DNA of 64,000 nt from Haladaptatus halobius (GTDB taxonomy: Archaea > Halobacteriota > Halobacteria > Halobacteriales > Haladaptataceae): the NCBI RefSeq assembly GCF_020618475.1, contig NZ_CP085336.1, forward strand, positions 124,001 to 188,000. Reading direction: 5' to 3'. This document shows positions 2,091 through 15,040 of the stretch, piece by piece. The position numbers were made by a program, and so were the translations under genes. The first letter of the stretch is position 1. The number at the start of each line of letters is the position of its first letter. Under the pieces are notes generated by a model that saw nothing but the letters and a program-made list of their open reading frames with translations, made no database searches and had not been told where the DNA came from.

Positions 2091-3020
2091 CTATGAATGT
2101 GATTCAAGTCGGTCGCGCTCAATCTCAAATTCTGTTCTGTATCCCGCTTCCTTCAGCGCTGCTGTAGCTTCGTCGATGCTCCGGCTGTCGTTGACCAAGG
2201 AGACGATTTTGGATGTCGATATGACTGCAGCTGGATCGAAATAGAACGTAACCGTACTGGGCGGAGTGAGCCGTAGAGAAACATCTCCGCCGCGAATCTG
2301 TTTCTGCCCGTATGCTCCCTGTGCCGCTTCGACCGGTAATCTGCTCGCCTCTGTTTCGACCGTTTCGAGAACTGCCTCAAGTTCGTCCCTGACACGGCGT
2401 GTCAATCCCCACGCCCCGAGTAGGCCATCGCGCTCGGCAGCACGCACGATTCCCGCTTCCAGTTCGTCCAGCGTAAGTTCGCCGTCGCTTCCGTATCCGA
2501 ACACCCCGAGTAGGGTTTTGGCCGATAACGTTTCGAGGGTTGCGAGCCCGAACCCATCCGTAACGGGACTTCGGAGTCCTAATTCGTCCCCTCGAGCCAG
2601 GACGTCTCCTCCGGCGTCCACGCCAACCACGAGATCGAGGTCAAGGTCGGTGCATGCTTCCTCGACGCCTACACGCATCCCTTCTGCCCCTTTGCTCATA
2701 TCGATAAGGGCGACTTCTGTCGAGTAGTGACGTGCGACGTACGTTTCCGTGAATTCCAACCCATCGTGAGTGCGTGTTTCGCCAGTTGCGAGTCCGACAG
2801 TCGTGCTGATTTTGTCGAGGTTGAGTATCTCGTCAAAACTTCTCGGTCCTGGTTTCGAATCCTTCGGAACTGGTTCCCACGTTGTTCCTCCAAGGAGTAC
2901 GTCGACCCCATGAAGTTCAAGGAGGCGAGCAGTAGGTATACTCCCGACGATATCGCCGCTCCCGCCGATACCGAAGACGAGGGCGCGTTCACAACGGAAG
3001 CTCTCTTCGAGTGTGAGCAT
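2091..3020 (-). CDS. DUF1152 domain protein
   Basis: I place the start at the ATG at 3018-3020, giving 309 residues from MLTLEESFRCERALVFG. The frame stays open further upstream, but the extra residues lack family character. The N-terminus has a nucleotide-binding-like glycine motif, VFGIGGSGDIVGSIP. The middle contains DLVVGVDAGGDVLARGDE and VFGYGSDGELTLDEL, the conserved blocks of DUF1152, a family of unknown function found in archaea and bacteria. The gene stands alone, convergent with the MoeA-like gene and divergent from the ABC importer. A weak TATA-like CTTATGTT lies near 3047-3056. Its link to the catabolic block is unknown. Confidence 0.75.
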   Translation of the reverse strand: MLTLEESFRCERALVFGIGGSGDIVGSIPTARLLELHGVDVLLGGTTWEPVPKDSKPGPRSFDEILNLDKISTTVGLATGETRTHDGLEFTETYVARHYSTEVALIDMSKGAEGMRVGVEEACTDLDLDLVVGVDAGGDVLARGDELGLRSPVTDGFGLATLETLSAKTLLGVFGYGSDGELTLDELEAGIVRAAERDGLLGAWGLTRRVRDELEAVLETVETEASRLPVEAAQGAYGQKQIRGGDVSLRLTPPSTVTFYFDPAAVISTSKIVSLVNDSRSIDEATAALKEAGYRTEFEIERDRLESHS

Positions 3021-3254
3021 GTTCACTATCCATATACGACGCATCAACATAAGATGTGTCGTGCACTCTACCACCGAGAAACCGTCACCACTCACTCTCG
3101 TCACGCCGTGCTGGGCATGCCCGGCGCGTGGGTACGACGTGTATCGTAAGCGGTACTCGGGAACCAAGGAATGGATGACCAAATCTATATTTGCATATCT
3201 CTACTATTTCATTGAATTATTGGAAATATTTACATCATATAACTGATGTTGAGT

Positions 3255-3279: not shown

Positions 3280-3321
3280 TGTAGCTTGCCTTCTCCCATA
3301 TTGAGGAACAGGTGTTGGCAA

Positions 3322-4395
3322 ATGACACATGAGACGGCCTCAAGGCGGCGATTTCTCAAAGCAGCCGGGGCTATTGGAATGATGGCAGCCGCGGGGCGAG
3401 TGGGGGCGCAGAACCAGAATCAGAATCCGTACGGAGGAGTTACCGGACCATTCAGGCTTCGGATGTGGCACGAAGACTATGCCGGTGCGCGGCTCCAGGA
3501 GTTCGCGCAAAAGTGGAACATCAGCGCCACGAACAAAGGGTTCGAGGATCCGGCAGAGCCGTTTGCTCAGCTTCAGGCTGGTCAGTACACCGGTGACCTC
3601 ATTTCGTTCTTGCACGACTGGGGACAACGGGCGTGGCGGAGCGACCTACTCCAACCCATAGACACGACCAGACTCCAGTATCTGGATAGGTTGGACGATC
3701 GGTGGCAGACGATGAACGAGGTCGGCCAGAACCGGCAGTGGGGCATCCCGTACGACGTCGGGCTTTACCCTATCACCTACAACACGGAGGTGTTTTCGAA
3801 CCCACCCAACAGTTGGTCGGTGCTGTGGGACGAGGAGTACAGAGGCCGCATCACAATGCAGGATTCGTCGATTCAGGCTTGCCAGAACGCGGCCCTCTAC
3901 ACGGGCCAGAATCCAATCAACCCGGACGACTTCCAAGAGATCGAAGAGGCACTGATGCAACAGAAGCCACTCGTGCAGTCCTACTGGGGAACGTTCGAGA
4001 GCGGGATGCGGTTGTTCGTCGACGGCGAGGTAGACGTCGGCCAGATTACGTTCGGTCGTACCGTCCAAGCGATCGTCGATCACGGCGCGAACGTCAACTA
4101 CTCCGTGCCGAGGGAGGGAGCGATGACGTACTTCGACGAGTTCACCATCCCGAAGAACGCGAACAACGTCGGGACGGCGTACGCCTGGATTGACGACTAC
4201 CTCCAACAGGGTGGTCCCCGATTCACAGAATTGGAGCGATACCGGGCTACCACCGCGAACCTGACCGAAACCGTTCCCCAGAACCAACGGGAACTGTACG
4301 ATTGGTCGCCGGATTGGAACTTGGTCACGCAGAGCCTGCTGGACGAGCGGGTTCTACAGCAGTACGACCAAATCTGGACGCGAGTCAAGGGATGA
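3322..4395 (+). CDS. Extracellular solute-binding protein of a polyamine-type ABC importer
   Basis: The 357-residue product begins with a twin-arginine signal (SRRRFLKAAGAIGMMAAAGR) and cleavage is likely near VGAQ, so it is exported folded, as is usual in haloarchaea. The mature part resembles PotD-like periplasmic-binding proteins: WGIPYDVGLYPITYNTEVF and VDGEVDVGQITFGRT are typical of the family. It would capture the substrate and deliver it to the permeases encoded just downstream. I chose ATG 3322 because AGGTG lies 7 bases upstream and the twin-arginine motif then sits close to the N-terminus; an ATG at 3286 is possible. The ligand is not readable from sequence; polyamine-type proteins also bind amino-acid-like and carboxylate compounds. 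Confidence 0.88.
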   Translation: MTHETASRRRFLKAAGAIGMMAAAGRVGAQNQNQNPYGGVTGPFRLRMWHEDYAGARLQEFAQKWNISATNKGFEDPAEPFAQLQAGQYTGDLISFLHDWGQRAWRSDLLQPIDTTRLQYLDRLDDRWQTMNEVGQNRQWGIPYDVGLYPITYNTEVFSNPPNSWSVLWDEEYRGRITMQDSSIQACQNAALYTGQNPINPDDFQEIEEALMQQKPLVQSYWGTFESGMRLFVDGEVDVGQITFGRTVQAIVDHGANVNYSVPREGAMTYFDEFTIPKNANNVGTAYAWIDDYLQQGGPRFTELERYRATTANLTETVPQNQRELYDWSPDWNLVTQSLLDERVLQQYDQIWTRVKG

Positions 4396-4452: not shown

Positions 4453-5589
4453 ATGACTAACTCGAACATACAAGTTGACGAAACGGAGGTGAGCGAGAAC
4501 CAGCAAACGGACATTGTCGAGGTAACGAACCTGTCGAAACACTACGACGACATCATCGCCGTGGACGACGTCAGCTTCAGCGTCCGGGACGGCGAATTCT
4601 TTTCGATCATCGGCCCGAGCGGTTCGGGAAAGACGACGCTACTGCGGATGCTTGCCGGATTCGAAGTGCCGACTCGCGGTACCGTCAAAATCGACGGTAT
4701 GGATTGCACCGCTCAGCCGCCGTATAAGCGCAACACGAACATGATCTTTCAGAACCTCGCCCTCTTCCCACACCTCGATGTAGGGAAGAACATCGCCTAC
4801 GGCCTCGTCGAGATCGGAGTCGACAGGGGAGAACGGCGACAGTTGGTAGACGAGGTTCTTCGAACGGTCGACCTAGAAGGGTATCAGGACCGTAAAATCA
4901 CCGAACTTTCCGGCGGCGAACAACAGCGAGTCGCACTCGCTCGCGGTCTCGTAAATGAACCTAGCGTCCTTCTCCTTGACGAGCCACTCGGCTCACTTGA
5001 CCGAAAGCTCAAAGAGACGATGAAACTCGAGCTGAAACGGATTCAGGAGCGGACGAACACGACGTTCATCTACGTGACCCACGACCAGAGCGTCGCGATG
5101 GCCATGTCCGACCGTATAACGATCTTGAATGACGGTAAGATTCAACAGATCGACTCGCCGGAACGAATCTACTCCAATCCGACCAACTCGTTCGTCGCGG
5201 ACTTCACCGGCGCGACGAATATCTACAAAGCGTCATTGGACGGGAGCGACAATGGATGGGCTACGGTGTCCATCGATGGCCAAACCCTCCGAGGCCGAGT
5301 CTCCGAATCGATGCCGACCGACGAACGTTCAACCGCTAACCTCGTCATTCGTCCCGAACACGTCTCGGTGTCGACAAACCAGGGTCGACTCGCGGGTACC
5401 GTAACCGACCGAGTGTACAAAGGGGCGCTGGTTGACCTCCTCGTAACCATCGATACCGGTTCTCGGACGCTCCAGCTCGAGGCAGAGGAGCACCTAGAGG
5501 TCGTCGATGGAATCGACGTCGGTGACTCCGTCTTCGTGGACTGGAAAGACGAAAACGCCCTCGTCGTTGGTTACCATGAGTCTCAGTGA
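4453..5589 (+). CDS. ABC importer ATPase, PotA type
   Basis: This 378-residue cytoplasmic ATPase powers the importer. Walker A is GPSGSGKT (residues 54-61), the Q-loop is MIFQNLALFPHL, the signature is LSGGEQQR (152-159), Walker B is VLLLDEP (172-178), and the H-loop is YVTHDQ. The C-terminal ~130 residues form the TOBE regulatory domain typical of PotA/MalK-like ATPases (VIRPEHVSVS). It lies 57 bases after the binding protein and its end overlaps the next permease by 14 bases, so the four genes form one operon. Confidence 0.93.
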   Translation: MTNSNIQVDETEVSENQQTDIVEVTNLSKHYDDIIAVDDVSFSVRDGEFFSIIGPSGSGKTTLLRMLAGFEVPTRGTVKIDGMDCTAQPPYKRNTNMIFQNLALFPHLDVGKNIAYGLVEIGVDRGERRQLVDEVLRTVDLEGYQDRKITELSGGEQQRVALARGLVNEPSVLLLDEPLGSLDRKLKETMKLELKRIQERTNTTFIYVTHDQSVAMAMSDRITILNDGKIQQIDSPERIYSNPTNSFVADFTGATNIYKASLDGSDNGWATVSIDGQTLRGRVSESMPTDERSTANLVIRPEHVSVSTNQGRLAGTVTDRVYKGALVDLLVTIDTGSRTLQLEAEEHLEVVDGIDVGDSVFVDWKDENALVVGYHESQ

Positions 5590-6475
5590 CGTCGTTCGCC
5601 ACCGGATACAGTGGACGTCCGAAGCGGTAGACCTATCGTGGCTGTGGCGGTCACTCATCGTCGGTCTCCCGGTGGCGTTCATCACCGTCTTTTTCCTCGT
5701 TCCGGTGGCACTCATGGTCGTTTCATCGGTGTATCCGGGTGTGACGGGCGCCCAAACGAACGAATTCACGTTCGAAGCGTACGAAGTGGCTTTGGATCCG
5801 ATCTACCTCAACTCCTTCTTCCGAAGTATCTGGTATGGCCTGGCAACGACGGTGATGTGTCTTCTACTCGGCTATCCGGTCGTTTACGCCGCCGTCAAGG
5901 TATTCCCACGATACGAAATACCCATCCTCCTCCTGTCAGTACTCCCGTTCTGGGTGATGTACCTCATCCGGATGTTCGGCTGGATCGCGATTCTGAAAAA
6001 CGACGGTGTGTTAGACGATATCGTGGCACTCCTCGGATTAGGCGTCGATATCAGTCTGCTCTACAGCGCCGAGGCGGTCGTCATCGGGCTAATCTTCTCG
6101 TGGTTCCCGCTCATGGTATTTCCGCTATACGCTTCACTGAAGAACCTCGACGATTCGCTGCTCGAAGCATCAAAGGATCTCGGTGCGAACTCAATTCGAA
6201 CGTTCCGGAGAGTGACCTTTCCGCAAACCAAGGCGGGAATCTTGGCAGGGTCGATCCTCGTGTTTGTACCTTCGTTCGGTTCGTTCGTGACCCCCATCCT
6301 CTTGGGCGGGACGACCAGTAGCCAGATGGTTGCGAACATCATCGGTCAGCAATTCAAGGAAGCGTTCAACTGGCCGCTCGGCGCGGCGCTTGGAACGATC
6401 ATGCTGGTCATCGTCCTTGCTAGCTTATTGATAGTCCAGCGGTACGCGACCATCATGGAGGTGCAAGAATCATGA
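5576..6475 (+). CDS. ABC importer permease 1, PotB type
   Basis: The product has 299 residues starting MSLSDVVRHRIQW at the ATG at 5576. This start overlaps the ATPase gene by 14 bases and is preferred over an ATG at 5507, which would lie deep inside that gene. About six transmembrane segments are visible, and the cytoplasmic EAA loop reads LLEASKDLGANSIRTFRRV (about residues 195-213), where the ATPase docks. It pairs with permease 2 immediately downstream (ATGA overlap). Confidence 0.9.
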   Translation: MSLSDVVRHRIQWTSEAVDLSWLWRSLIVGLPVAFITVFFLVPVALMVVSSVYPGVTGAQTNEFTFEAYEVALDPIYLNSFFRSIWYGLATTVMCLLLGYPVVYAAVKVFPRYEIPILLLSVLPFWVMYLIRMFGWIAILKNDGVLDDIVALLGLGVDISLLYSAEAVVIGLIFSWFPLMVFPLYASLKNLDDSLLEASKDLGANSIRTFRRVTFPQTKAGILAGSILVFVPSFGSFVTPILLGGTTSSQMVANIIGQQFKEAFNWPLGAALGTIMLVIVLASLLIVQRYATIMEVQES

Positions 6476-7323
6476 ATACGAAAACGTCATCGAAATCGGA
6501 GTTGGATCGTCGACCGAAGTACACCGACTTCCTCGACCAGTTCGTCAATCGAACGAGTCTCGGACTCGTTCTCGGGCTCGTTTTCTTCTTTCTCTGGCTC
6601 CCACTGGTTGTTATTGTGATTTACTCATTTTCGGGCTCAGGCACAATAATCTTCCCACCTAAGACTTGGACGCTAAAATACTACTGGGGACTGCTCAACG
6701 CGCCCAGTATTCATGGGGCGGTTAAAAATAGCTTAATAATCGCGGTCACCGCGGCGTCAATCGTCACGATGCTCGGCATCCTCGCAGGATACGCACTCAA
6801 CAAGTACAATGTTCCAGGCAAGCGATATTTCGAGTCGATCGCGTTGCTACCAATAATCGTTCCGCTAATCATCACCGGAATTGGCTACGTCATCTTCTAC
6901 TCGTTCTTCGAGATCCAATTCGGAATGGGGACGACGATCATCGCACACAGTACCTACACGTTTCCCTTCGGCGTTATCATCATCACGTCATCTATCGCCC
7001 GGGTCGACAGGAGTCTTGAGGAGGCAGCGATGGATCTCGGTTCCTCGGAATTTCGCGTCTTCCGCAAGGTGACGCTCCCACTCATTGTTCCCGGCATCTT
7101 CGCAACGTGGATTCTCGCCTTTACGCTCTCGCTCAACGAGTTCGTCATTACGTACTTCGTCAGTGGGACGTTCATGTCGACGCTTCCGATATGGATGTGG
7201 GATCAACTACGATTCGGTGTGACGCCGCTGACTTACAGTATTTCGGCGGTCACGCTCTTCGTCGCGCTAGGATTGGTATATGCCGTCCACCGAGTGATCG
7301 GCGTCCAACAGATCCGTGGTTGA
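6472..7323 (+). CDS. ABC importer permease 2, PotC type
   Basis: This 283-residue membrane protein starts at the ATG of an ATGA overlap with permease 1, so translation is coupled. It has six hydrophobic segments and the EAA motif LEEAAMDLGSSEFRVFRKV near residues 180-198. The first segment follows a charged N-terminus. Together with permease 1, the ATPase and the binding protein it completes a type I importer of the spermidine/putrescine class. A 100-base gap with its own TATA-like sequence follows, so the next gene may be separately transcribed. Confidence 0.9.
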   Translation: MNTKTSSKSELDRRPKYTDFLDQFVNRTSLGLVLGLVFFFLWLPLVVIVIYSFSGSGTIIFPPKTWTLKYYWGLLNAPSIHGAVKNSLIIAVTAASIVTMLGILAGYALNKYNVPGKRYFESIALLPIIVPLIITGIGYVIFYSFFEIQFGMGTTIIAHSTYTFPFGVIIITSSIARVDRSLEEAAMDLGSSEFRVFRKVTLPLIVPGIFATWILAFTLSLNEFVITYFVSGTFMSTLPIWMWDQLRFGVTPLTYSISAVTLFVALGLVYAVHRVIGVQQIRG

Positions 7324-7428: not shown

Positions 7429-8442
7429 ATGACGCAACCCGAGAAGGATGTGGCCACTATCGTCGACGATCTCATTACGACCGATATAGGGGGACGGGAT
7501 ACGATTTATCCCATCGCGGCTGCAGCAAGGGAGAAGCAGGGTACAAATCCTGCAATGCAGGCTGCAGAGCGACTAACGACTGACGTCGGAAGAGGAGATG
7601 TCGTACTCGTCTTAACCGGTTTTCTCATTCCGCCGACGATGATCCAGGAGACCGACGGCCCGCTCGGTGCGGTGTCGGTTGCTCGCGCTGTGGATATAGG
7701 CCTGGACGCTAACGCCATCATAGCGTGTGAACCGAATGCTGTCGAAATTTGCAAGGCAACTGCAACTGCCGGAGGATTGAACGTCCTCGATAGAATGTCG
7801 AATTACGAGAGTAAGCAGACCGTGAGTGTCGAGGCATTCCCGGCTGACCAAGATGAGGCGCGCGAGTACGCTGAGGAAGTAATCTCGGAACTCGATCCCG
7901 CTGTCGTCATCGCAATCGAAAAGGTTGGGCCAAATCGCGTTGGGGTGTATCACAATATGGCTGGATACAATATCACCGAGCACACGGCAAAGGTGGACGA
8001 ACTCTACGAACTACTCGATGACAGTGTAACGACGATAGCTGTCGGTGATGCGGGCAACGAAGTCGGCATGGGCGTCGTAGAGGAAACAGTACGACGCGAA
8101 ATCAAGTACGGGTCTTCATGCCAATGTGACTGCGATGAAGGCATCGCGGCAGCAGTTTCGGCTGACGTTCTCGTTCCAGCTACTGTTTCCAACTGGGGTG
8201 GCCACGCCATCGCAACTTGCCTTTCTGAGTTAGTTGGAACACCTCTCCTTCACGACGCGGAACTTGAACGTCGGATGCTTATCGAAGCCAGTATGGCTGG
8301 TAGTATCGATGGAATCGTCGGTGGAACAAACGCATGGTGTGACGGCCTCCCGACACACGTTCACGTGGCTATAATCGAACTGCTACACGAAATCTCCCGA
8401 TCGTCAGTACACGATCGTGGTGGCGGTGAACTGGCACGATGA
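7429..8442 (+). CDS. DUF4392 / D-glutamate-cyclase-like protein
   Basis: The 337-residue protein belongs to the DUF4392 (D-glutamate cyclase-like) family. Conserved blocks are VLVLTGFLIPPTMIQETDGP, PLGAVSVARAVD, VVIAIEKVGPNRVGVYHNM and, most diagnostic, VGDAGNEVGMG (about 205-215). A small cysteine cluster CQCDC lies at about 231-235 in SSCQCDCDEG. The mitochondrial family member converts D-glutamate to 5-oxoproline (established for that enzyme); other members are uncharacterised. Here the gene is embedded in a catabolic block between an ABC importer and two CoA-ligase-type genes, so it probably acts on a ring-opening or ring-closing intermediate (inference). The substrate is not predictable from sequence. 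Confidence 0.8.
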   Translation: MTQPEKDVATIVDDLITTDIGGRDTIYPIAAAAREKQGTNPAMQAAERLTTDVGRGDVVLVLTGFLIPPTMIQETDGPLGAVSVARAVDIGLDANAIIACEPNAVEICKATATAGGLNVLDRMSNYESKQTVSVEAFPADQDEAREYAEEVISELDPAVVIAIEKVGPNRVGVYHNMAGYNITEHTAKVDELYELLDDSVTTIAVGDAGNEVGMGVVEETVRREIKYGSSCQCDCDEGIAAAVSADVLVPATVSNWGGHAIATCLSELVGTPLLHDAELERRMLIEASMAGSIDGIVGGTNAWCDGLPTHVHVAIIELLHEISRSSVHDRGGGELAR

Positions 8443-8498: not shown

Positions 8499-9851
8499 AT
8501 GGACAAACGCAACGTCACCACTCACCCAGGTAACTGGAGTCGGTGGATAGATACCGCTGACCGGAAACGGATTCGAGCAGTACAAGATCAAAAAGTAAGC
8601 CGACAGGCCCGATGGGTATACACGAACTCGTCGTACTGGCGAGAGAAGTTCGACGAGGCGAACTGCCTACCGTCCGCGATTTCAGGCGTGGATGATTTGA
8701 CCGCAGTGCCCTTCGCGACGAAGGCTGAGTATCGGACGGCGCAGTCGGAACGCCCACCGTACGGCGGATTGCTGTGTCGTTCGCGCGAGGATCTGTACGA
8801 AAGCGGTGCGTTCGTGTGGGAAACCAGCGGAACGACCGGCGAGCCGGTACAGTTTCTGTGCTCTCAGAACGAGTACTTCAGAGTCGATGTCGAAGCCACG
8901 TGTCGGATATTGTGGACGACAGGTCTCCGACCAGGAGATACCGTCGCAATGTTCTGGCCGCTGACGCTCTGGGCGGTCGGACACGGAATCGTGGATGCTG
9001 CCAGAGAACTCGGGATGACTGTCTTTCCGCTAGGGCCGTCGTACAGTTCAGAATATCGAGTCGAAAAGCTCGCAGCGTATCAGCCCTCGACGATAATGAC
9101 GACACCCTCCTACGCACTTCGATTAGCCGAAGTCGCAAGTGAGAACGGTTTCGACCCGCACGCGCTTGATGTTGAACGCGTCATAGTGAGTGGCGAACCG
9201 CTCCCAGATGGGACGCGTACCGCCATTGCAGAGGCGTGGGGGGTCTCCGAACGGGTCTTCAATTACTATGGACTGTCAGAAGCATTCAACTGTCGCAGCA
9301 TCGAATGTGAGGAACACGACGGAATGCACGTCCTCGAAGATCTATATCTCTGCCAAGTCGTCGACCCGGATGGCAGAGACCCTGTTTCAGAAGGAGAGAC
9401 AGGTGAACTCGTCGTCACTGCCCTTGAACAGCGAGACATTGCCTCGGGGTTCCACTACCGTACCGGTGACCTCGCTCGATTCACGGATGACCCGTGCGCT
9501 TGCGGGCGGACGACCCGCCGAATCAAGATCGAATCTCGGAAAGACGATATGAAGACAATAAGGGGAGTTAACGTCTTCCCGCAGGCTATCGAGTCGATCA
9601 TCAGAAAAACGGATTCTGTAGCCGATGAGTTCCGTCTCGTGCTCGAACAGGTGGGGTCACTCGACCGACTGACGGTAGTTCTCGAACCCGAAGCAGATCT
9701 TTCCGAGGAGCATTACGAGTCGATACAAGACCAACTCGAACGCGATTTCGAAAAAGCGTTTGGTGGCCTGACAGTCATGGTTGAATTCGTAGCTCCCGAG
9801 ACGCTCGAACGGTTCGATTTTAAAGCAGATAGGTGGGTTGACAAACGCTAA
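8499..9851 (+). CDS. PaaK-type AMP-forming CoA ligase
   Basis: This 450-residue enzyme resembles phenylacetate-CoA ligases, which activate aromatic or other carboxylic acids as CoA thioesters using ATP. The P-loop-like motif is TSGTTGEP (residues 109-116). NYYGLSEAF supplies the YGxxE motif, and FHYRTGDLARF is the YRTGD motif. The C-terminal small domain begins after RRIKIESRKDDMK. A Cys pair in CACGRT near residue 332 is typical of PaaK relatives. GAGGT lies 6 bases before the ATG. Substrate class is inferred from the family only; the neighbouring racemase/isomerase and Mo-hydroxylase genes suggest a shared pathway. Confidence 0.87.
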   Translation: MDKRNVTTHPGNWSRWIDTADRKRIRAVQDQKVSRQARWVYTNSSYWREKFDEANCLPSAISGVDDLTAVPFATKAEYRTAQSERPPYGGLLCRSREDLYESGAFVWETSGTTGEPVQFLCSQNEYFRVDVEATCRILWTTGLRPGDTVAMFWPLTLWAVGHGIVDAARELGMTVFPLGPSYSSEYRVEKLAAYQPSTIMTTPSYALRLAEVASENGFDPHALDVERVIVSGEPLPDGTRTAIAEAWGVSERVFNYYGLSEAFNCRSIECEEHDGMHVLEDLYLCQVVDPDGRDPVSEGETGELVVTALEQRDIASGFHYRTGDLARFTDDPCACGRTTRRIKIESRKDDMKTIRGVNVFPQAIESIIRKTDSVADEFRLVLEQVGSLDRLTVVLEPEADLSEEHYESIQDQLERDFEKAFGGLTVMVEFVAPETLERFDFKADRWVDKR

Positions 9852-9885
9852 ATAGCGGATCTGCATGACCATTGTTAACATCGGG

Positions 9886-9893
9886 TTTATATT
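9886..9893 (+). promoter_or_regulatory. TATA box of the maleate-isomerase-like gene
   Basis: TTTATATT lies 23-30 bases before the ATG at 9916. This is the haloarchaeal spacing for a leaderless transcript starting at that ATG, and it argues against the ATG at 9865, which lies upstream of the box. Confidence 0.7.
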
Positions 9894-9915
9894 GGAATCT
9901 CCCGAATTAGGCAGT

Positions 9916-10635
9916 ATGTACGGTTACCGTGGTCGGTTAGGTCTCATCGTTCCCTCATCAAACACGACGAATGAATCGGAGTTCTGGAGATGGATACCAA
10001 ACGGTGTATCAGTTCATACCGCACGAATGCAACTTGAGGACGTAAACGAAGCGCAACTCGTCGAGATGGCTGCAGACGTCGAAACATGTATTTCGATGCT
10101 GAAAACAGCAGATGTCGATGCTATCGCGTTCGGCTGTACGACGGGAAGCTTAGTGAAAGGGAAGGGGTATGATGAGCAGATACAGGCGACGATAGAGACT
10201 GAAGCTGGTGTGCCAGCAGTCGCCACTTCGACGGCAATCAGAAGAGCGTTCGATATTCTTGATGCCCGGTCACTTGCAATCGCAACGCCATACACGGAGT
10301 CAATGAACGAAAGAGAGAAAGAATTCCTTGAAGAGAATGGGTACCGAATTACTGAAATCGTCGGACTTGATATCGAACCGAATACCGAAATCGGCCAGCA
10401 AACCCCGTCAACCGCGTATCGGTTGGCCGCCGATGTCAATAGCACGGCTGCCGATGCAGTATTTATCAGTTGCACGAATTTCAGAACGTTCGAGATCATT
10501 CCGCAGTTAGAGGCGGATCTCGGCAAGCCAGTCGTCACCAGCAACTCCGCAACTCTTTGGGCATCGTTAAACCTGCTTGACGTCAGCGCCGAGGAAGTCA
10601 ATTTAGGCACGCTGTTTGAACGATCGCTTCTGTAA
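9916..10635 (+). CDS. Maleate cis-trans isomerase / Asp-Glu racemase superfamily enzyme
   Basis: The 239-residue product starts MYGYRGRLGLIVPSSNTT at ATG 9916, chosen from the TATA spacing. PSSNTT, FGCTTGS (Cys about 74) and ISCTNFR (Cys about 186) are the paired-cysteine and Asn signature of maleate isomerase and arylmalonate decarboxylase relatives, which use two cysteines for cofactor-free chemistry. Maleate isomerase converts maleate to fumarate at the end of nicotinate and gentisate breakdown (established knowledge). Both cysteines being present favours isomerase or racemase over decarboxylase chemistry (inference). The gene sits between two CoA-ligase-type genes, which supports a catabolic role. 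Confidence 0.82.
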   Translation: MYGYRGRLGLIVPSSNTTNESEFWRWIPNGVSVHTARMQLEDVNEAQLVEMAADVETCISMLKTADVDAIAFGCTTGSLVKGKGYDEQIQATIETEAGVPAVATSTAIRRAFDILDARSLAIATPYTESMNEREKEFLEENGYRITEIVGLDIEPNTEIGQQTPSTAYRLAADVNSTAADAVFISCTNFRTFEIIPQLEADLGKPVVTSNSATLWASLNLLDVSAEEVNLGTLFERSLL

Positions 10636-10653
10636 TTACTTGATAAAATCATC

Positions 10654-12141
10654 ATGTCATCTGTTACACCACCGGATGGATCACAGGCCGCTTGGGAAGA
10701 CGCACAAGACGAAGTTGGTTCGTTGCTTGAGCCTGACGTAGTCGCTATCGTCGGCGCAAGCAACACCGAAGGTAAGCCCGGGAACGTTCTTCTGCGGAAC
10801 GTTCTCCAAAATAACTTCGACGGTCATGTCTATCCGATCAACCCGTCAGCTGATACTGTGCTCGGACTCGACGCCTACCCGAGTATCACCGACGTTCCGG
10901 AGGAGGTCGATACAGCGGTGTTTTGTGTTCCTGGGTCAGTCATCGAGACTATATTGCCCGACTGTGCTGCCAAAGGCGTCACAAGTATCGTCATCGTGTC
11001 GGCCGGATTTGCCGAAGCCGTCGACGAATCGCGGCAGGAACTCCAGCGCAAACTTACTGAACGTTGTATGGAGTATGGGATCCGTGCGGTCGGCCCGAAT
11101 ACGACAGGGATGGTCTCGATGAAAAAGGATCTCGTCGCAAGCTTCATGCCGTTTCCCCGGTGGCACGATGGCCGAATCGCTATCGCCGCCCAAACGGGTA
11201 TCTTCGCTGGGGTGTATATGGAGGAACTGATGGCACGGGAGGTTCAAAAACTCGGGTACAACTACAGCGTTGGACTGGGAAACAAGATGGATCTCGACGA
11301 AACTGATTTTGTCCGCTACGCTGGCCAGGACGACTCGATCGACATCCTCCAGTTGTACCTTGAATGCATCCGGCAGCCCGAGGAGTTCTTCCCCACAGCC
11401 GCCCATGTAGCAAAGCAGAAGCCCATCATTCTCTTGAAGTCCGGACGTACGTCAGCGGGACGTGACGCGGCCCGATGGCATACAGCCTCGTCACCGACCG
11501 TCGACGCGGAAGTCGAACAGGCGTGCCGTATGAGTGGCATCATCCGGGCCAACACTATTCCTCAGTTCACGAACTATGCAAAAGGGTTCGACTACCAACC
11601 GGCACCCCGCGGACGGAAAGTGGCGGTACTCTCATTGAGTGGGGCGAACGCCGTGCTCGCCTCCGATTACATCTCCCAGTCGGTGCTTGAGCTCGCCGAA
11701 CTTTCCGAGGCGACGCTCAGGCGAATCAAGGAACTCGTTCCCGAGTGGCAGCCGGTTCGCAACCCCGTCGATCAGTGGCTTGCGCTGCCCAGTGGGCCGC
11801 GCAAAGCCCAAGCGGTTCCGCTCGAAGCGGTGATCGCTGACGATAACGTCGACGCCATCGTTACTATTCACCTCGCGAGCGAGGAGCCCGACTTCGATGA
11901 GGTCGGTGAGATGTATCGAAGAGCGATGGTTTCCCATCCAGACAAACCCGTCCTCTCGTACATCATGGGCGCTGAAACGAAACACAGGTGGATCGAGTCC
12001 TTAGAGGGGACGGACGTTCCGGTATTCGAGTCTGCGTTCGACGCTATCGATACACTTGAACAGATGTATCGTTGGCATCGCTACTCCACCGGATACGAAT
12101 TGTACGACCCGACCATTTCTGTCCCCGGTGAAACGATCTAG
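10654..12141 (+). CDS. Acyl-CoA synthetase (ADP-forming) alpha-domain protein
   Basis: The 495-residue protein has a CoA-binding Rossmann domain (VAIVGASNTEGKPGN, residues 31-45), GPNTTG (147-152), and two succinyl-CoA-ligase-like domains with the predicted phosphohistidine in ARWHTAS (His about 276). These are the alpha parts of NDP-forming acetate/acyl-CoA synthetases. The ATP-grasp beta domain found in the ~700-residue fused enzymes is missing, and no separate beta subunit gene is visible in this window. It may pair with a beta subunit encoded elsewhere or act as a CoA-transferase-like protein. It lies 18 bases after the isomerase gene and converges, with a 1-base gap, on the Mo-hydroxylase genes. 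Confidence 0.8.
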   Translation: MSSVTPPDGSQAAWEDAQDEVGSLLEPDVVAIVGASNTEGKPGNVLLRNVLQNNFDGHVYPINPSADTVLGLDAYPSITDVPEEVDTAVFCVPGSVIETILPDCAAKGVTSIVIVSAGFAEAVDESRQELQRKLTERCMEYGIRAVGPNTTGMVSMKKDLVASFMPFPRWHDGRIAIAAQTGIFAGVYMEELMAREVQKLGYNYSVGLGNKMDLDETDFVRYAGQDDSIDILQLYLECIRQPEEFFPTAAHVAKQKPIILLKSGRTSAGRDAARWHTASSPTVDAEVEQACRMSGIIRANTIPQFTNYAKGFDYQPAPRGRKVAVLSLSGANAVLASDYISQSVLELAELSEATLRRIKELVPEWQPVRNPVDQWLALPSGPRKAQAVPLEAVIADDNVDAIVTIHLASEEPDFDEVGEMYRRAMVSHPDKPVLSYIMGAETKHRWIESLEGTDVPVFESAFDAIDTLEQMYRWHRYSTGYELYDPTISVPGETI

Positions 12142-12142
12142 T

Positions 12143-14515
12143 CTAGTAGTCTTTCGATTCCTTTAGGCCGGCTTCGACTTTCGCTTTCGTTATGGGCAGG
12201 TCGCTAATCCTCACCCCGACGGCGTCTTTGATAGCGTTCGCGACCGCTGCCGGTGGACCCATGTTCGTTACTTCACCAACACTTTTCGCGCCGAACGGTC
12301 CAGTTGGTTCATACGATTCGACCAAGATTGACTCGACGCGTTCGGGGATGTCAGTGCTCCGAAGTACGCCGTAGTTCTTGAGCCCGTCCACCTGTGGTGT
12401 ACCGTCCTCGTCGAATGTGAGCTCCTCTGAGAGTGCCTGTCCGAGTCCCATTACTGCGCCGCCAATCACCTGTCCGCGGGCATTCTCGGGGTTGATGGCG
12501 TAGCCACAATCGGCAGCGCTGATGAGGCTCAGCGCCTCGAACTCGCCGGTTTCCGTGTCGACTTCAACTTCGGCAGCTTGAGCTGCGAAGGGCTTGGGCG
12601 AGATCGGTGTGAAATGTTCCCCATAGCCCTTGAGTCGACGCTTCGGTCCATCGATGCCTACGAACGCTCTCTCTGCGAACTCTGTGAGAGCCAACTCCTC
12701 GCCGTCCGGTGCCTTAATGGTTCCCTCAGCCAATTCGAATGACGTTGGGTCGCCGTCGAGCCAGCGCGTTGCTACCAAACGGATCTTCTCGGCGAGATCA
12801 AGTGCGGCCTTCTCGGTCGCATTGCCACTTACATATGTCGTGCTACTCGCGTACGCACCGTTGTCCCAGGGTGTTGCGTCCGTATCGTCGGCTTTCACGT
12901 GAATCTCGTGGGTTTCCAGTCCGAGGACCCCAGCGGCGATTTGTGCCATCGTCGTTTCTGCACCCTGTCCGGCATCCCCCACGCCGACCATGAGTGTACA
13001 CGTACCGTCGTCTTCCAATGTGATTTCGGCACCCGAAAACTCACTGCTTGCGACACCTGATTTGTGCATCGTCAGCGCGACGCCACGGCCGCGCTTATAC
13101 CGCTCGTCTACATCCTGCTCCGGATAATTGTCCCAATCGACTGCATCGCAGACCTTTTCGAGGCATTCGCCGACACCGACCGATTCAAGCGCTCCCGCAC
13201 TCTGGCTGTATCCCGGTTCAAAGCCCTCGTCGCCCTCTTGGACGAGATTACGCCGTCGGAGCTCTGTGGGATCCATATCGATGGCCTCCGCCACATCGTC
13301 GATGTGGCTCTCGAGTCCGAACGAGCCCTGAACCGCACCGTAGCCGCGCATCGCGCCTGCCGGAGTGACGTTGGTGTAGACTGTACGACCGGTGAATAGC
13401 CGATTCTCGCACGGATAGATGGACATCGGTTCGTGTCCAGCATTCGACAGCACAGTGTAGGCGTGACATCCGTACGCACCAGTGTTGGAGGTAATGTCGA
13501 AATGAAGCGCGGTGATGGTTCCATCATCTTTGACGCCGGTTTTGACCGAGAGCGTCTGAGCATGTCGGGTCTGCGCAACGTGGAGATCCTCCTGACGGCT
13601 ATTTTCGATGCGAATGGTCTCGCCAGTCTCCAATGCGAGCGCCGCTGCGATGAGCTGGCTCGGTAAGATATCCTGTTTAACGCCGAAGCCGCCCCCGACG
13701 CGTGGCTTGATTACCCGCACGTCTTTTCGATTCATTCCGAGCGCTCTCGCTATGGTGTTCCGAGTGATGTGGGAGATTTGCGTACTCGTACGGAGTACGA
13801 GCCTCTCGCGGTCGTCGATCCAGGCAATTGTCGTGTTCATCTCCATCGGGGCCTGCTGAACGATCTGGGTCTCGTACACACCCTCGACGATAGTGTCAGC
13901 CTCCTCGAATCCAGCTTCGGCGTTACCCTCTTCGTGACGTGTTTCACAGACGATGTTGTGCTCTATATCTGCATTCCTCTGGGCGTTCTCGTAGTCGTTT
14001 TGATCGTGGATAACGGGCGCATCATCCTGCATCGCCTCCGCTGGATCCAGAACGTGCTCGAGCACGTCGTACTCTACGTCTATCTTCTCGACGGCTGTTT
14101 CGGCCGCTGTTTCAGTTTCGGCTGCGACCGCCGCGACTGGATCGCCGACGAATCGAACTTTCTCGTTGATGATAAACTCGTCGAATGGAGCTGGTTGGGG
14201 ATACGGAAACCCAGTTCGAGTGAAGCGCCGTTTCGGTACATCTTTGTGTGTAATAATCGCGTGAACTCCATCGACTTCCTCGGCGGTGCTCGTATCGATC
14301 GACGCGATTCGTGCGTGTGCGTACGGACTCCGGAGAACACACACCTCCAAGGCGTGCTCGGTCGGCACGTCGTCGGTATAGCGGGCTCGTCCCGTTACGA
14401 GCCCGTGGCCATCGACCTTCTGCACACTCTTTCCTACTTCGGTCTCCCCTTCAGCATGAGCCTCTATCGCTTCGGAATCGATTCCTTGGCCTGTCTCTAT
14501 CTCAGATTCTGCCAT
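12143..14515 (-). CDS. Molybdenum hydroxylase large subunit (xanthine dehydrogenase / CoxL family)
   Basis: This 790-residue subunit binds the molybdopterin cofactor and carries out substrate hydroxylation with water. The N-terminal a/b hammerhead domain starts near VGKSVQKVDGHGLVTG. The Mo-binding domain shows VGGGFGVKQD, AGAMRGYGAVQ and VGVGDAGQGAETTMAQ, and the C-terminal AKSVGEVTNMGPP supplies the conserved active-site Glu. The length is usual for CoxL/XdhA proteins. Its start overlaps almost directly with the end of the 2Fe-2S subunit gene (3-base gap). Purines, nicotinate and other N-heterocycles, aldehydes and CO are known substrates of the family; the CO dehydrogenase active-site motif with cysteine was not seen. 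Confidence 0.9.
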   Translation of the reverse strand: MAESEIETGQGIDSEAIEAHAEGETEVGKSVQKVDGHGLVTGRARYTDDVPTEHALEVCVLRSPYAHARIASIDTSTAEEVDGVHAIITHKDVPKRRFTRTGFPYPQPAPFDEFIINEKVRFVGDPVAAVAAETETAAETAVEKIDVEYDVLEHVLDPAEAMQDDAPVIHDQNDYENAQRNADIEHNIVCETRHEEGNAEAGFEEADTIVEGVYETQIVQQAPMEMNTTIAWIDDRERLVLRTSTQISHITRNTIARALGMNRKDVRVIKPRVGGGFGVKQDILPSQLIAAALALETGETIRIENSRQEDLHVAQTRHAQTLSVKTGVKDDGTITALHFDITSNTGAYGCHAYTVLSNAGHEPMSIYPCENRLFTGRTVYTNVTPAGAMRGYGAVQGSFGLESHIDDVAEAIDMDPTELRRRNLVQEGDEGFEPGYSQSAGALESVGVGECLEKVCDAVDWDNYPEQDVDERYKRGRGVALTMHKSGVASSEFSGAEITLEDDGTCTLMVGVGDAGQGAETTMAQIAAGVLGLETHEIHVKADDTDATPWDNGAYASSTTYVSGNATEKAALDLAEKIRLVATRWLDGDPTSFELAEGTIKAPDGEELALTEFAERAFVGIDGPKRRLKGYGEHFTPISPKPFAAQAAEVEVDTETGEFEALSLISAADCGYAINPENARGQVIGGAVMGLGQALSEELTFDEDGTPQVDGLKNYGVLRSTDIPERVESILVESYEPTGPFGAKSVGEVTNMGPPAAVANAIKDAVGVRISDLPITKAKVEAGLKESKDY

Positions 14516-14518
14516 CGT

Positions 14519-15040
14519 TTAGTCACTCCTTGCTTCAGTTTCGCCTTCGGAACGCATCTGATCTGCCGCGGCCTGAATGGCCTCGAACTGTTGGATGTAG
14601 CCCGTACATCGGCAGATGTTTCCCTTTAGTGCACTCCGGATTTCACTTTCCGTCGGATCGTCGTTCTTCTCTAAAAGCTGGACACCCGATAGAATCATCC
14701 CTGGGATGCAGAATCCACACTGCGCGGCGCCGTAGTTCAAAAACTCCTCTTGGAGAGGATGGAGTTCCCCGTCCTCAGAGACGAGTCCTTCAGCTGTCGT
14801 CAGTTCCTCGCCCTCATACCGTTCCGCCGGTACGAGACACGATCTGACGATCTGATTTTCTCCGTATAGAACGTTACACGCTCCACACACTCCTTCACTA
14901 CATCCGTTTTTGACACTGTAGTATCCAGCTCGCCGAAGGGCCGCCATGAGTGACTCCCCTTCGTCAAATTCTAATTTCTCGTTTTCGCCGTTGACAACGA
15001 CGTCAATCCTCTTCTTGGAATTCCCCACCCTAGCGCACAT
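14519..15040 (-). CDS. Molybdenum hydroxylase 2Fe-2S subunit (CoxS family)
   Basis: The 173-residue protein carries both iron-sulfur clusters of the hydroxylase. The plant-ferredoxin-type cluster uses C47, C52, C55 and C68 (NGCSEGVCGACN and RSC). The second cluster uses QCGFC and CRCTGY in the helical C-terminal domain. It lies directly upstream of the large subunit, so the two are co-transcribed. The FAD-binding medium subunit (CoxM) that usually accompanies these two is absent from this window, so electrons must leave by another route or the FAD subunit is encoded elsewhere. Confidence 0.92.
   Translation of the reverse strand: MCARVGNSKKRIDVVVNGENEKLEFDEGESLMAALRRAGYYSVKNGCSEGVCGACNVLYGENQIVRSCLVPAERYEGEELTTAEGLVSEDGELHPLQEEFLNYGAAQCGFCIPGMILSGVQLLEKNDDPTESEIRSALKGNICRCTGYIQQFEAIQAAADQMRSEGETEARSD

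Follow-up and report, generated by a model that had tools for sequence, protein, structure and literature searches.

A DUF4392 protein of Haladaptatus halobius with a predicted TON_0340-like dimetal site and a recurring cysteine loop, encoded in an import-linked gene run

Introduction

The Pfam family PF14336 (GLUCM-like_C) was formerly known as DUF4392. Its members range from archaea to humans (PMC5132392), and its reaction is unsettled, with a weak Mn phosphatase activity described for a single-domain archaeal protein and a D-glutamate cyclase activity for a two-domain mouse protein. For the archaeal protein, TON_0340 of Thermococcus onnurineus, the part of the published account used here reports six acidic residues, all invariant, as ligands of metal, together with two bound Mn2+ ions, a small cavity and a slow phosphatase activity that depends on Mn (PMC5132392). 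The mouse protein, 9030617O03Rik (mammalian DGLUCY), carries a DUF4392 domain fused to a DUF1445 (PF07286) domain and is a D-glutamate cyclase; in the portion of that report on which we draw, the activity was tested on the whole protein, not on single domains (PMC5339696). The Pfam name D-Glu_cyclase belongs to the other domain of the pair, PF07286. Family members that lack PF07286 are therefore a natural place to learn what the DUF4392 domain does alone, and we describe one such member here.

Results and discussion

A full-length PF14336 protein with the fold and metal ligands of TON_0340

The window (the whole stretch of DNA that was analysed, 64,000 nucleotides of H. halobius contig NZ_CP085336.1) contains at positions 7429–8442 of the + strand an ORF that begins with ATG and, with its stop codon included, encodes 337 amino acids. 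A reading made beforehand from the sequence only had named it a DUF4392 gene, and this is borne out: residues 12–319 of the product match positions 1–290 of the 291-position PF14336 profile (E 5.6e-72), with a score of 243.1 bits against a curated cut-off of 27.9. The protein is the sole PF14336 member of the genome.

An AlphaFold model of the protein, built with a 22-row alignment, has a mean pLDDT of 93.4. Foldseek returned 15 matches at E ≤ 0.001, all of them TON_0340 chains, and among PDB entries, too, every relative is TON_0340 (4FC5, 4DWZ, 5GKX and 5GL2–5GL4). It was also the best match in VIA-align, with a Z score of 37.5 and an rmsd of 1.7 over 267 aligned residues, values that indicate the same fold. 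The next matches in that comparison, well below it at Z of about 10–10.8, were RecJ/DHH phosphoesterases, and rows with Z below about 9, these two groups aside, were not taken as kinship. The RecJ/DHH proteins have a related alpha/beta fold but only 11–16% identity over about 165 residues, and the DHH motif that marks them is absent from the sequence of the 7429–8442 product, so that the similarity is one of fold and not of membership.

All six metal ligands of TON_0340 (E59, D61, E115, D157, E161 and D246) are kept. They map, on the + strand, to E74 and D76 of an ETDG motif (7648–7659), E164 (7918–7920), D207 and E211 of the motif GDAGNEVGMG (residues 206–215; 8044–8073) and D305 (8341–8343). 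None of the six columns varies across the 37 rows of our alignment A1, which comprises 37 of the 48 distinct ORFs recovered with a purpose-built profile and omits the other 11. Both proteins have a single domain; TON_0340 differs in its length (268 residues) and in the absence of a loop insertion that carries the sequence CQCDC in the H. halobius protein. From the sequence and the predicted model it can safely be said that the gene, part of an import-linked run, appears to encode a TON_0340-type two-metal enzyme that is intact and carries a recurring CxCxC loop.

The cysteine loop recurs in distant lineages

The CQCDC cluster that the earlier reading had noticed after GDAGNEVGMG occupies residues 231–235 (C231, C233 and C235; 8119–8133, + strand). 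It lies in an insertion of ~8 residues, 15 residues past that motif and ahead of an SNWGG stretch, which is missing from TON_0340 and from TRAP-linked haloarchaeal forms of the family. The protein has seven cysteines among its 337 residues, compared with none or one in each of the four importer proteins encoded upstream, and the number of chance CxCxC matches expected at its own cysteine frequency is 0.003. Stronger evidence than this expectation is the conservation of CxCxC across lineages: a chance motif is ruled out, because the pattern is retained in an orthologue of 68% identity over 337 residues (from Natrinema hispanicum and N. limicola; loop CQCGCG) and turns up again in distant lineages. 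In the corresponding alignment columns we find CQCGCG in three Rhodobacterales-type proteins, CGCPCG in a genome of the alphaproteobacterial class (G512), CRCGCG in an archaeon of another class (G990) and CLCSCQ in genome G728. The earlier reading had named loss of the cluster in orthologues as evidence against itself, and the opposite is observed.

These loops share a frame, [YF]G..C.C.C..G, located between the GD.GNE motif and SN.G, to which the H. halobius protein conforms; we propose the grouping 'CxCxC form of PF14336' for proteins that possess it. The pattern is present in eight of 38 tree rows and was not seen in the 11 ORFs omitted from A1. Placing it on the tree requires five changes, of which the starred branches force at least three, and the CxCxC members thus do not make up one clade; shuffled labels needed as few changes in nine of 500 cases. 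The branch leading to G512 is very long and its position unsure. Intermediate loops also exist, with two of the three cysteines in one genome (DCRC, G1478) and a single cysteine at two loci (L028 and L032). This distribution could reflect an ancient motif with several losses, or a motif gained more than once.

In the predicted model the loop connects a helix (residues 215–224) to a strand (247–250), and the block 231–240 has a mean pLDDT of 94. In a parallel alpha/beta protein of the usual topology, a loop in this position would be expected on the opposite side of the sheet to the ligands, and hence at a distance from the catalytic pocket. We found no description of a Cys loop in this family in the literature searched, which included a word search of PMC5132392.

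The gene run in the window

The earlier reading had also placed the gene between an importer and CoA ligases, and this setting is confirmed. The genes form a co-directional run on the + strand, with gaps of 105 bases between the importer and the DUF4392 gene, 56 from there to a PaaK-like gene, 13 to a racemase-type gene and 18 to an AcdA-like gene. Upstream are a substrate-binding protein of the polyamine type (3286–4395, with a possible start at 3325; PF13416, E 1.4e-18; PotD-like, far under the cut-off), a PotA-like ATPase recognised by profile match (4453–5589) and two permeases of an ABC importer. The first permease (5507–6475, with its true start probably after 5589) is 27% identical to the permease of a Haladaptatus importer, and the second lies at 6472–7323.

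Downstream, profile matches identify a PaaK-like, AMP-forming CoA ligase (8499–9851), which scores below the PaaK equivalog cut-offs (273.2 versus 700 for NF041878 and 230.7 versus 646.3 for TIGR02155), and a protein like the alpha subunit of ADP-forming acyl-CoA synthetases, or acetate-CoA ligases (10654–12141), in which a Pfam scan found no ATP-grasp part. Between them lies a gene for an Asp/Glu-racemase-superfamily protein (Pfam Amdase; 9865–10635), the product of which carries both racemase-type active-site cysteines, in GCTTGS and SCTNF. True arylmalonate decarboxylases are marked by a glycine (G74) in place of one cysteine and by a lone C188 (PMC4996985, in the part of it used here). Because both cysteines are present, a racemase or isomerase is more likely on sequence grounds; the score against the NCBIfam model for the decarboxylase is 110.6, versus a cut-off of 225.

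Two further loci adjoin the run on the − strand. Molybdenum hydroxylase large and 2Fe-2S subunits (XdhA-like) are encoded convergently with it at 12143–15040, where a scan of nearby proteins revealed no FAD subunit, and a DUF1152 protein (PF06626, E 5.7e-84) is encoded at 2091–3089.

Gene partners of the relatives

Importer genes occur within 5 kb of the DUF4392 gene at 10 of 14 annotated plasmid loci, a count that includes an MFS gene (L022) and a lone binding protein (L112); the four loci without one are L024, L030, L114 and L115. TRAP or peptide-ABC genes adjoin it at L014–L016, L061 and L062. The transporters near relatives are of TRAP, tripartite tricarboxylate, amino-acid ABC, peptide ABC and OPT kinds, and the enzyme partners also vary (PLP enzymes, aldehyde dehydrogenase, amidase, AtuA, HyuA/B and CoA-transferase). 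An Amdase-family gene adjoins DUF4392 at one other locus, in Salipiger abyssi; the Amdase-family protein there lacks the first of the two active-site cysteines, so this pair and the one in the window may not be equivalent.

The sequence-only reading had conceded that finding the family beside unrelated genes elsewhere would count against it, and this is in part what we see. The Natrinema orthologue adjoins an OPT transporter and genes that are Trk-like by eye, rather than CoA ligases, and BLASTP at E ≤ 1e-20 found no match in the Natrinema loci for the window's importer, PaaK-like, AcdA-like, Mo-hydroxylase, ADH or PALP proteins. The Rhodobacterales-type CxCxC loci (L024, L096 and L097) encode proteins with all six ligands and the loop at the same place, but with 32–33% identity to the window protein; their partners are class III and class V aminotransferase-fold proteins, an aldehyde dehydrogenase and a weak-match UPF0425_C protein. 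The window, Natrinema, G990, G512 and Rhodobacterales-type loci all differ, no partner is common to the CxCxC members, and a single conserved catabolic operon was not found.

Some carriers have more than one copy of the gene. Near-identical CxCxC copies are located on two contigs of Natrinema hispanicum DSM 18328 (L009 and L012), both preceded by the same OPT and Trk-like genes, and probably represent a recent duplication of several kb. Two diverged DUF4392 paralogues are found at each of L022, L023, L025 and L033, on symbiotic and other plasmids; at L022 and L023 they flank a protein annotated as selenocysteine synthase, and in L022 this flanked protein matches only UPF0425_C, and that weakly. 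This paralogue arrangement is an uncharacterised catabolic cassette.

Amide or lactam chemistry as the preferred reading

Taking sequence and model together, we tentatively favor a dimetal enzyme of amide or lactam chemistry, either a cyclase or an amide hydrolase, that would act on an imported carboxylate and have a peripheral Cys site. The six acidic residues would hold two metal ions (Mn2+ or Mg2+), the ABC importer would bring in a small amino- or dicarboxylic compound, and the DUF4392 enzyme would close or open an amide or lactam of that compound; the product could then pass to central metabolism via the racemase-type protein and both CoA ligases. The CQCDC loop, conserved in one form of the family, would serve to bind a thiophilic metal or to stabilise a contact and would have no part in the chemistry.

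Support for this reading comes from the partners of relatives, which act on amino acids, amides and carboxylates (PLP enzymes, amidase, HyuA/B, PF07286), from the short gaps of the co-directional run and from the importers near relatives. Against it, we came across no report of a substrate or an activity for a CxCxC member, the sole activity found for a single-domain member is a weak phosphatase in the part of the literature drawn on (PMC5132392), the Natrinema orthologue has no CoA ligases beside it and the neighbors of the CxCxC members all differ. The cyclase or lactam hydrolase activity suggested by the sequence-only reading is possible; the reaction it proposed goes further than the evidence.

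The kinship with TON_0340 would also fit the kind of activity proposed for that protein, with the enzyme as a Mn-dependent phosphatase or phosphoesterase that acts on a small metabolite. With Mn2+, TON_0340 slowly hydrolyses AMP and other compounds, and its activity is lost in the E59Q and D157L variants (PMC5132392); the equivalent residues E74 and D207 are kept here, and the next-best folds are those of RecJ/DHH phosphoesterases, at Z of about 10. The TON_0340 rate is low, however (kcat/KM of 190 per M per s), and that account gives its substrate as unknown (PMC5132392), while the literal DHH motif is absent from our protein and its neighbors, an importer and CoA ligases, include no kinase or phosphate gene. 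We consider a phosphatase unlikely.

PF07286 and the D-glutamate cyclase question

The presence of PF07286 was determined in 75 genomes, of unequal completeness, and the domain was found in 15 of 21 bacterial carriers of PF14336 versus four of 34 non-carrier bacteria drawn from the same genome lists (Fisher 1.6e-5). The matches to the two domains are 102 bases apart in G1330 and 163 in G1306. On the strength of this enrichment and of the near-adjacent matches, the sequences indicate that PF14336 and PF07286 are genuine partners in many bacteria, as they are in mammals. By contrast, PF07286 is absent from the 7429–8442 product, from the H. halobius genome and from every one of the 10 archaeal PF14336 carriers searched, H. 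halobius among them. It is found in none of nine CxCxC carriers, which are not independent of each other (three are Natrinema, and G1443 and G1462 are close), versus 15 of 22 other carriers (15 of 17 among bacteria).

The sequence-only reading held that the characterised relative makes 5-oxoproline from D-glutamate, which is true of the two-domain mouse protein (PMC5339696); for single-domain TON_0340, a weak Mn-dependent phosphatase activity is described (PMC5132392). A D-glutamate cyclase proper would convert D-glutamate to 5-oxo-D-proline and pass it to 5-oxoprolinase (PxpABC-like) genes elsewhere in the genome. In its favor, besides the mouse activity, are a racemase-type protein two genes downstream and a PxpA gene (PF03746), on another contig of the H. 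halobius genome, near CT_A_B and biotin-carboxylase genes. The inference is nevertheless weak, since the activity belongs to a two-domain protein, the Pfam name belongs to PF07286 and that domain is absent here; in addition, glutamate needs no two CoA ligases. PxpA occurs in only one of the 10 archaeal PF14336 carriers searched, for which reason we rejected a link to PxpABC 5-oxoprolinase as a family rule. This activity seems improbable for the window protein. The PxpABC-like cluster itself (L118, contig C4, at about 353.5–358.1 kb) is next to a biotin carboxylase gene, and PxpA occurs in two of 30 genomes searched.

The split between CxCxC and PF07286 would help to establish what function DUF4392 has on its own, and the Cys loop is a clear, testable mark of one PF14336 form without PF07286. 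That form is spread over haloarchaea, another class of Halobacteriota and Pseudomonadota. It is possible, if rather doubtful, that the loop marks a functional form that works without PF07286 and has, in addition to the carboxylate dimetal site, a further metal site of thiolates (Zn or Fe-S), and that in the window the imported carboxylate leaves as a CoA thioester; the DUF4392 literature that we found, in the parts consulted, describes no such route for PF14336.

A stronger role, in which the loop is a working part that binds Zn or an Fe-S cluster and controls or performs a reaction unlike that of the rest of the family, appears quite unlikely to us. The recurrence of CxCxC in separate lineages in the same frame, its presence in carriers without PF07286 and the high confidence of the predicted loop would all agree with it. 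Relatives on the same branch as the Rhodobacterales-type proteins, however, have a similar loop that lacks cysteine (RPDG, RPEG) or keeps two of the three (DCRC) and share several gene partners with them, and the cysteines therefore appear not to be essential on that branch. The H. halobius protein is a Cys-loop variant of a known family and is not strange enough to represent a new kind of system.

Distribution of the family

PF14336 is rare, being found in eight of 391 genomes of the class (H. halobius included), in none of the two other same-genus and eight same-family genomes of the sample, and in seven of 294 genomes of the phylum (two over the cut-off). Among relatives of a Paracoccaceae MAG it occurs in nine of 385 genomes of the class, nine of 398 of the phylum and four of 140 of the order; the corresponding counts are one of two genomes for the order of G512 and two of 59 (one over the cut-off) for the class of G990. 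Alternatively, the gene could be a passenger that arrived by horizontal transfer and is unconnected to the importer and the CoA ligases. This view would be consistent with the rarity of the family and with the different neighbors of the 68% identical orthologue, but sits poorly with its co-directional position between importer and ligases, with short gaps, and with the importers common beside the family, and we hold it to be a poor prospect.

A scan of viral contigs gave one candidate homologue, to our reading a structural protein of a phage in which GDAGNE occurs by chance. Two unusual ORFs were also observed among the cellular relatives. One haloarchaeon (G068) has an N-terminally truncated DUF4392 gene (L020, 10211–10555), and a genome of the same genus (G284) has a TRAP-linked full copy; in G445, a single ORF (L057, 8389–10389) contains two tandem DUF4392 matches.
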